Shown: positions 771 through 4,469 of the stretch, in pieces | Layout of the letters: each line of letters begins with the position of its first letter | Numbering within the stretch: position 1 is the first letter of the stretch | Source: Candidatus Tectimicrobiota bacterium | Lineage (GTDB): Bacteria; JACPSX01 | Direction of reading: 5' to 3' | Assembly (NCBI GenBank): GCA_016193065.1 | Contig: JACPSX010000012.1 | Location: 1-6,355, forward strand | Length of the DNA stretch: 6,355 nucleotides | The notes under the pieces: generated by a model | Databases searched by the model: none | The model's input: only the letters and a program-made list of their open reading frames with translations | What the model was told of the DNA's origin: nothing | Position numbers and translations under genes: made by a program

Positions 771-1530
771 ATGAAGGGCGTGATTCTTGCGGGGGGGCTG
801 GGCAGCCGGCTGTCCCCGCTCACCAAAATCACGAACAAACATTTGCTACCGGTTTACGATAAGCCGATGGTCTTTTACCCTCTGCAGTGCCTGGTGAACG
901 CGGGGATCACCGACATCATGATCGTTACTGGAGGCAACAATGCCGGAGACTTCTTGAAGCTTCTGGGCAACGGCAAGGACTTTGGCCTCAAACATCTCCA
1001 CTATGCCTATCAGGAAGGGGAGGAGGGGATTGCTGCAGCCTTGAGCCTGGCAGAGCATTTTGCCGACAACGAGAAAATCTGTGTGGTGCTGGGCGACAAC
1101 ATTATCGAGGGGAACATCCGGAGCGCTGTTGAGGAGTTCCAGAAGCGGGAGTCGGGGGCAAAAATCCTCCTCAAGGAGGTGGAAGACTCGGAGCGGTTCG
1201 GGGTGCCCGTCTTTAACGGGGACAAGATTGTGCGGATTGAGGAGAAGCCGGCAGAACCGGGTTCAGATCGAGGAGAAGCCGGCAAAGCCCGGCTCACGCT
1301 ACGCCGTCACGGGCATTTACATGTACGACCACAGGGTCTTTGACATCGTCCGGAAGCTTGTCCCTTCCCGTCGCGGCGAACTGGAGATTACCGACGTGAA
1401 CAACGATTACATTGCCCGGGGAGATATGTCCTGGGGCGTTCTGGAGGGGTGGTGGACGGACGCGGGGACCTTCCCGTCGCTCTTGAGGGCGAGCAATCTG
1501 GTGGCCACGACCGGGGCCAACAAGCTGTGA
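771..1530 (+). pseudogene. rfbA: Glucose-1-phosphate thymidylyltransferase (RmlA/RfbA), frameshifted
   Basis: The product would make dTDP-glucose from glucose-1-phosphate and dTTP, the first step of dTDP-L-rhamnose synthesis. From 771 the frame gives a typical nucleotidyltransferase: GGLGSRLSPLT (residues 8-18), KHLLPVYDKPM, the metal-binding LGDN (Asp109), and IVRIEEKPAEPGS up to about residue 165. An extra, diverged 31-base copy (1235-1296) then shifts the frame, and translation would end at 1343 with an unrelated tail. The true C-terminus continues in the other frame: SRYAVTGIYMYD, ELEITDVN, GWWTDAGT, ending at TGA 1528-1530. Removing one 31-base copy restores a 242-residue protein, the size of the short RmlA type. 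The start is ATG 771, with GAGGGGGA at 751-758 and GGGGAG adjacent. Unless the shift is an assembly artefact, no full enzyme is made. Confidence 0.88.
1235..1296 (+). repeat. Imperfect 31-bp tandem duplication within rfbA
   Basis: Copy 1 is 1235-1265 and copy 2 is 1266-1296, with 26 of 31 bases identical. Each encodes the IEEKPA(E/K)PGS segment just before the YAVTG motif of RmlA, a segment that family members have once. Four of the five differences fall at third codon positions (ATT/ATC, CCG/CCC, GGT/GGC, and the third base of GAA/AAG); the fifth makes Glu to Lys. Because 31 is not a multiple of three, the duplication puts the two halves of rfbA in different frames. Confidence 0.9.
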
Positions 1531-1694: not shown

Positions 1695-1880
1695 GTGAAG
1701 CTTATTGATGGGGACAAAGTGAAGCAGCTCCAGGTCATTCCCGACGAACGGGGTCGCCTCATGGAAATCCTGCGCTGCGACGACGAGAATTTTGTCAAGT
1801 TTGGTCAGGTCTACATGACGACGGTTTTTCCCGGGGTCGTCAAGGGCTGGCATGACCATTTTTACCCCCTCTCTCCTTGA
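1695..1880 (+). pseudogene. rfbC: dTDP-4-dehydrorhamnose 3,5-epimerase (RmlC-like), N-terminal stub
   Basis: RmlC epimerises dTDP-4-keto-6-deoxyglucose at C3 and C5, the third step of the rhamnose pathway. The frame gives KLIDGDKVKQLQVIPDERGR, then LMEILRCDDENFVKFGQVYM and TTVFPGVVKGWHDH, a clear match to the start of the RfbC/cupin epimerase family, and then changes to FYPLSP and stops. About 55 of a usual 150-180 residues remain, so the cupin barrel and active site are lost. I see no continuation in any frame between 1881 and 2005. GTG 1695 is chosen as start because it matches the family N-terminus and AGGGG lies just upstream; ATG 1665 in the same frame would add ten residues with no ribosome binding site. 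The break point is followed by repeat-like DNA. It is almost certainly non-functional. Confidence 0.85.
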
Positions 1881-3033: not shown

Positions 3034-3915
3034 ATGCCCCGAATTCTGATTACCGGTGCCAGAGGAATGCTGGGGAGTGCACTGGTCCGTTTTCTCCAGA
3101 AGAAAAAAAAGGAGAAAATTGAGCTTTTCCCCTGCGACCTTGAGGATCTGGATGTAACCAACCCGGGGGGCGTCAGATCCGGAATTGGAGACATCAAACC
3201 CCATATAGTCATTCATGCGGCCGCCTTCACAGACGTGGACGGCTGTGAGGTGGATGAAAAAAAAGCAATGTCGGTGAATGCCGAGGGGACAAAAAGCGTG
3301 GCGCAAGCCTGCGCGGAAGTGGGGGCCCGGCTGATCTACATAAGCACGGATTTTGTATTCGATGGTACAAAGCGCTCGCCATACAGCGAGGCGGATTCTC
3401 CGAATCCGGTTAATGTTTATGGTCAATCCAAGCTGCGCGGTGAGGAATACGTATCAGGAATTCTGCTCGACTTTTTGATCGTTCGAACGTCGTGGCTTTT
3501 CGGTCCGGGAGGCAGGAATTTTGTGGATACGATCCGCTGCCTGGCGGATAGCCGGAAGACTCTTTCCGTGGTCACGGATCAGGTCGGCAGTCCGACTTTT
3601 TCTGAAGATCTGACGGAGGCGCTCTGGCTTCTCGCGGATTCCGAAGCGGGGGGAATCGTTCATGTGAGCAATGAAGGTGCCTGCTCACGTTATGAATGGG
3701 CGAGAAAAATCGTGGAATTTTCAGAGAAAAATCCTGCGATGGTTCGTCCGTCCACTTCACAAGAGGTGATCAGACCCGCGCGACGACCAAGTTACTCGGT
3801 TCTAAATTCGTCACGGTTCAAGGAAATTACCGGTCGTTCGTTAAGGCCCTGGGTTGATGCGGTGGAAGCTTACCTTTCCTCATCCCTCTCCCCTGGCGGG
3901 AGAGGGCAAGGGTGA
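3034..3915 (+). CDS. rfbD: dTDP-4-dehydrorhamnose reductase (RmlD) with repeat-derived C-terminus
   Basis: RmlD reduces dTDP-4-keto-L-rhamnose to dTDP-L-rhamnose with NAD(P)H, the last pathway step. The 293-residue frame has GARGMLGS (8-15), HAAAFTDVDGCE (61-72), STDFVFDG (104-111), the YxxxK pair Tyr129/Lys133 in YGQSKLRGEE, TSWLFGPGGRNFV and TDQVGSPT, all typical of RmlD. ATG 3034 is chosen because GAGGA (3023-3027) lies before it and the protein then begins directly with the Rossmann fold (MPRILITGARG); the frame is open upstream but that extension overlaps rfbB. The natural end is near RPWVDAVEAYL; the final 12 residues (SSSLSPGGRGQG) and the stop come from a palindromic repeat at 3878-3917. 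The tail should be tolerated. A run of eight A encodes KKKK near residue 24. Confidence 0.95.
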   Translation: MPRILITGARGMLGSALVRFLQKKKKEKIELFPCDLEDLDVTNPGGVRSGIGDIKPHIVIHAAAFTDVDGCEVDEKKAMSVNAEGTKSVAQACAEVGARLIYISTDFVFDGTKRSPYSEADSPNPVNVYGQSKLRGEEYVSGILLDFLIVRTSWLFGPGGRNFVDTIRCLADSRKTLSVVTDQVGSPTFSEDLTEALWLLADSEAGGIVHVSNEGACSRYEWARKIVEFSEKNPAMVRPSTSQEVIRPARRPSYSVLNSSRFKEITGRSLRPWVDAVEAYLSSSLSPGGRGQG

Positions 3916-3917
3916 GG
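3878..3917. repeat. REP-like palindrome forming the 3' end of rfbD
   Basis: CCCTCTCCC (3884-3892) and GGGAGAGGG (3898-3906) form a perfect 9-bp stem with loop CTGGC. An outer pair, CCTCA (3878-3882) and TGAGG (3913-3917), extends the symmetry. This is the CCCTCTCCC/GGGAGAGGG, GGTGAGGG kind of dispersed palindrome common in many bacterial genomes. Its bases are translated as the last residues of RmlD and its TGA is the stop. After transcription it could also act as an mRNA 3' stabiliser between rfbD and the next gene, which is inference. Confidence 0.8.
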
Positions 3918-3968
3918 GGGACTTCTTGCGCGGTGGTTTGCACTCATTGTAGCGGAGAGCTGTAAGCG

Positions 3969-4469
3969 ATGATCCCTGAGTGGTATGCGGTGCGCACCAT
4001 GAGCCGGCATGAGCAGCGGGTCACTGACAGACTTACGAGCAAGGCTTTCCAGGTCTTTTACCCGACGCTGGAGGTCTGGAGTCAGTGGAAGGACCGCAAA
4101 ACGAAGGTCCGGAAGCCCTTGTTTCCAGGCTATCTGTTCATCCAGTTCGAACTGACCCGGGAGGCCTGGATCGAGGTTTTGAAAACTCCGGGGGTGGCCA
4201 ACATCCTGGGCTATACCGATGAACCGACACCGGTGCCTGAGGAGCAGATTCACTCCGTGCAGACGGTTTTGACGGCAGGGGTTCCCGTCAGACCCCATCC
4301 CTACTTGAACGTGGGGGATAAGGTCATCGTGATTGAGGGTCCCCTCAAGGGGGCGATTGGGATCTTCACCGGTTTTGATCACAAGAAGGGGAAGCTGATC
4401 ATCTCGGTGGATCTGTTGTGCCGCTCCATCGAGGTAGAACTGGAAACCCGCGAGGTAGAGAAGTTTTAG
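3969..4469 (+). CDS. NusG-family transcription antiterminator (UpxY/RfaH/LoaP-type paralog)
   Basis: The 166-residue protein has an NGN domain (about 1-100) beginning EWYAVRTMSRHEQRV, with the typical PLFPGYLFIQF (50-60), the aromatic/PGY core that contacts the RNA polymerase clamp. A C-terminal KOW domain (about 114-166) contains NVGDKVIVIEGPLKGAIGIF and GKLIISVDLLCRSIEVELE. Housekeeping NusG sits with secE and ribosomal protein genes; this one sits in a sugar cluster, where specialised paralogs reduce pausing and premature termination across long polysaccharide operons. The start is ATG 3969, with GGAG at 3954-3957 somewhat far upstream. It begins 53 bases after rfbD and probably opens the second unit of the locus. 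The family is firm; which subfamily is not decided. Confidence 0.9.
   Translation: MIPEWYAVRTMSRHEQRVTDRLTSKAFQVFYPTLEVWSQWKDRKTKVRKPLFPGYLFIQFELTREAWIEVLKTPGVANILGYTDEPTPVPEEQIHSVQTVLTAGVPVRPHPYLNVGDKVIVIEGPLKGAIGIFTGFDHKKGKLIISVDLLCRSIEVELETREVEKF

Follow-up and report, generated by a model that had tools for sequence, protein, structure and literature searches.

The rmlA (rfbA) gene of this contig is broken by two head-to-tail copies of a 31-nt segment, and we think it probable that the repeat is a product of assembly, in which two contigs from related populations, sharing a diverged overlap of about 31 nt, were placed end to end. The window analyzed here, 6,355 nt long, is a complete contig (C266) of a 2.90-Mb genome in 294 contigs that is 86.29% complete and looks like a short-read metagenome bin. 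It is the sole genome of its phylum in our comparison set, and all other genomes searched share only its domain. A literal reading of the contig would point to a rhamnose pathway that is either broken or switchable, in a lineage without close relatives in the collections; most likely, the repeat is an ordinary artifact and no genetic switch is involved.

The copies agree at 26 of 31 positions, with an identical run of 15 nt at 1239 to 1253. The mismatches, given as copy 1/copy 2, lie at 1238 (T/C), 1254 (G/A), 1256 (A/G), 1259 (G/C), and 1262 (T/C), which, counted in the rmlA frame that begins at 771, fall on codon positions 3, 1, 3, 3, and 3. Each copy translated in frame gives nearly the same peptide from a conserved segment, IEEKPAEPGS for copy 1 and IEEKPAKPGS for copy 2. 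An earlier note on this DNA had described exactly this arrangement, namely, 31-base copies with five differences, four of them at third positions, that both encode IEEKPA(E/K)PGS, and our coordinates and translations confirm it. For the ungapped match at period 31, the binomial E is about 8e-5 over 1.3 Mb when this one period is considered; because E is still about 1e-4 after our rescaling to the 6.4 kb of the window and the full set of 233 periods scanned, the repeat is more than chance. The third-position bias is by itself modest, the probability of at least four third positions among five being 11/243, or 0.045, by our own calculation. Tandem Repeats Finder at its lowest threshold returned no row for the 31-nt pair, and a separate repeat search of the window listed it in a shifted register.

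On either side of the repeat, rmlA is read in a different frame (Table 1). In profile searches, residues 2 to 163 of the upstream piece align to positions 1 to 163 of TIGR01207, and the downstream piece aligns from another frame to positions 156 to 239, which bears out the earlier statement that the rfbA frame is broken. In an alignment with 94 homologues, the end of one piece and the beginning of the other overlap by 10 residues. The shift at the repeat is +31, and each copy is continuous with one flank only, in the frame of that flank, which would place the join between 1265 and 1266. A ribosome starting at the rmlA start codon would reach copy 2 in the wrong frame, and selection would therefore have been unable to keep changes in this copy silent after a duplication. 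Since silent divergence cannot accumulate in an out-of-frame copy, the differences most likely predate the join, having arisen in two intact genes that were joined afterward. Programmed +1 frameshifting was also considered and was rejected because the 10-residue insertion that it would create is absent from homologues; to our knowledge, TCA-GAT is not a slippery site.

Table 1. Coordinates of the two rmlA pieces, the repeat copies, and the neighboring rmlC fragment in the window
Feature	Position	Strand	Evidence or remark
rmlA/rfbA (glucose-1-phosphate thymidylyltransferase), N-terminal piece with copy 1 at its end	771..1265	+	TIGR01207, E 1.7e-46
Copy 1, in frame with upstream half (IEEKPAEPGS)	1235..1265	+	
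Copy 2, in frame with downstream half (IEEKPAKPGS)	1266..1296	+	
rmlA C-terminal part, second frame, beginning with copy 2	1267..1530	+	TIGR01207, E 9.6e-26
rmlC-like epimerase, truncated	1695..1880	+	About 54-55 residues match to VKGWHDH, then unrelated FYPLSP and stop

Comparison with homologues indicates that the two copies represent one position in related genomes, a point in favor of an artifact. Within 40 amino acids of the repeat site, the EKP segment occurs once in each of the 102 homologues examined, and a 31-nt repeat at this site was found in none of these 102, none of which is closely related. The copies match each other at 25 of 30 positions, and the best homologue match is at most 22 of 30 for copy 1 and at most 24 of 30 for copy 2. 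Two close relatives would be expected to give copies closer to each other than to any homologue, and the pattern indicates that the copies derive either from such relatives or from a single gene.

The flanks were also aligned to homologues separately, as the earlier note had suggested; left and right affinities were not different, but the comparison has no power, because no relative in the collections is closer than about 77% protein identity. Against the homologues, the left and right halves of rmlA correlate at 0.566, with the best relatives reaching only about 77% protein identity. Intact homologues give a mean left-right correlation of 0.634 (standard deviation, 0.201), a range within which 0.566 falls, and artificial chimeras give a mean of 0.294 (standard deviation, 0.323), with 28% of them reaching 0.566. 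As we read these distributions, the correlation would neither show nor exclude a chimera between close relatives. The halves do not differ in composition beyond the spread within the bin. The bin was searched for another rmlA allele, and none was found; the viral contigs searched contained relatives at 42 to 57% only.

According to the assembly explanation, two contigs from related populations would have covered the same position of rmlA, overlapping by about 31 nt, and because they differed by about 16% in this overlap, the assembler would have left them unmerged. Joined directly, without a gap, the two would have left the closing stretch of one contig as copy 1 and the opening stretch of the other as copy 2, and the result would be a diverged tandem with a frameshift. 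The two halves of rmlA would then come from different cells, and it would be the assembler rather than the organism that made the join.

Related errors have been described elsewhere. Overlapping contigs of divergent haplotypes can be placed side by side and imitate a duplication (Kelley and Salzberg 2010, PMC2864568), a situation that shares with ours two diverged versions of one locus that overlap at contig ends and are set adjacent. Those cases come from diploid animal genomes and have much longer overlaps, whereas here the overlap would be 31 nt in a metagenome bin. In metagenome assemblies, overlaps at scaffold joins are left as duplicate sequence, and strain mixtures yield chimeric ORFs (Chen et al. 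2020, PMC7111523). The local assembly errors of that study resemble the rmlA case in that overlapping flanks are left as duplicate sequence, but they have Ns at the join, whereas the rmlA join has none and its copies are diverged.

Faulty joins elsewhere in the bin bear on this explanation, and 140 of its contigs (1.32 Mb) were read. Eighteen of the 140 carry one run of Ns each, 4 to 87 nt long (besides some short contigs that are all N), and these runs look like scaffold gaps, or possibly masking; no clear duplicated flanks were found across the short N gaps. Wrongly sized joins, both too long and too short, occur in conserved genes of the bin. The tgt gene (L117, contig C250) is broken twice within 350 nt, at an exact tandem duplication of 46 nt close to its end (14985 to 15076) and at about 15320, where the frames meet at one point and the profile jumps from 204 to 256, leaving about 50 codons missing. 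A DegT-type aminotransferase on contig C44 (L169, reverse complement, about 2594) changes frame as the profile passes from 156 to 175 and lacks about 18 to 21 codons there. In the window itself, homologues of the rmlC fragment extend about 100 residues beyond the break at VKGWHDH, and this truncation is likely a second faulty join, or else a real deletion. The rmlC-like gene on C44 was considered as the source of the missing part and set aside, being a different paralogue. The 1.3 Mb scanned also contained three exact tandems, with units of 46, 55, and 64 nt that are each 1 mod 3; the 55-nt copy lies at a cas2/cas4 boundary (L198 3605 to 3714, contig C74).

The fragmented draft assembly, the scaffold-like N gaps, and the wrongly sized joins in tgt, the C44 aminotransferase, and rmlC all count toward an artifact. 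Counting against it are the lack of Ns at the rmlA join, the lack of differing affinities between the left and right halves, and the singularity of the repeat, which is the only diverged, frame-breaking tandem found in a recognized gene in the 1.3 Mb scanned. Diverged tandems at the longer periods of 251 to 1,200 amounted to a few weak matches of up to 71%. The break rate, a further point against an artifact, is not clearly raised: a small homologue-based test found multi-frame places at 2 of 22 sites in the bin versus 38 of 455 in other genomes, with many of the 38 coming from one variable family. Given these counts and the lack of clear flank duplication at N gaps, an unusual level of faults in the bin is not established. 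The idea in the earlier note that two related rmlA alleles were joined is nonetheless supported by the single copy in all 102 homologues, the silent divergence in each frame, and the other bad joins, and of the two causes offered there, an assembler joining two sequences is favored over recombination in the genome.

The main competing explanation, which we consider unlikely, is a genuine recombinant: illegitimate or misaligned recombination would have joined two rmlA alleles at a 31-nt offset and left a pseudogene in a polysaccharide locus. Such an event would account for the silent divergence equally well as an artifact would, sugar-nucleotide loci often recombine, and the neighboring rmlC is likewise broken. 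However, one of the genes broken on other contigs, tgt, is not a polysaccharide gene; the search of the bin turned up no other rmlA allele, and the flanks show no difference in affinity.

Ordinary slippage duplication inside a single rmlA, followed by decay, is more doubtful still. The exact 46-, 55-, and 64-nt tandems could be events of this kind, but the rmlA copies have five substitutions in 31 nt, four of them at third positions, and both frames otherwise remain intact as far as the join. A gene decaying after a frameshift would not be expected to favor silent sites, although the bias among only five sites is weak (P = 0.045).

Tandem-repeat slippage gives phase variation in surface-polysaccharide genes, and the rmlA repeat shares with such systems a length that is not a multiple of three and a location inside a sugar-nucleotide gene. 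Unlike them, it has only two copies, 84% identical, and none in homologues. We find it very improbable that this is a real mosaic rmlA of an uncultured phylum, formed by recombination between two alleles, reversible by loss of a copy, and turning rhamnose synthesis on and off in a crude way. Least credible of all is a reversible switch in which rmlA goes on or off as a copy is lost or gained: the 15-nt identical run is long enough in principle for slippage, but cycling copies would stay identical and these are not homogenized, no homologue has the repeat, and rmlC is broken too (a different rmlC-like gene is present on C44), so that restoring rmlA alone would not restore the cluster. With diverged copies, no repeat in homologues, and other broken genes on the contig, the on/off switch for rhamnose synthesis proposed earlier finds no support.

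If the repeat is an artifact of assembly, it warns that this bin is no safe basis for calling pseudogenes or phase variation, and it offers a usable signature of joins between contigs of related strains, consisting of a short diverged tandem with mainly silent differences in which each copy is in frame with one flank only.

Besides rmlA and the short rmlC fragment, the window contains rmlB, rmlD, a NusG/UpxY-type antiterminator gene, an SDR epimerase/dehydratase gene, and the start of a gene for a PseC-like aminotransferase. The NusG-family antiterminator, at 3969 to 4469, exceeds the UpxY cutoff and sits inside the sugar-nucleotide cluster. Between rmlA and rmlC, a short ORF, MDKPAVIRTCDLVIEVGLLIFLCREFV, at 1540 to 1623 looks like the N terminus of a membrane protein, an O-antigen ligase perhaps; searches with it found no family and no convincing homologue. 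Repeats with palindromes such as GGGCGCAATGAATTGCGCCC lie upstream of rmlA, at 11 to 89 and 252 to 337. This motif recurs in the bin on a second contig (L142 3689), which makes it probable that the left part of our contig comes from the same genome as the rest of the bin. A G+C-rich inverted-repeat-like element of 35 to 41 nt, CCCTCTCCCCTGGCGGGAGAGGG..., lies at 3884 to 3918, and five further contigs of the bin carry it at about 88 to 92% identity.
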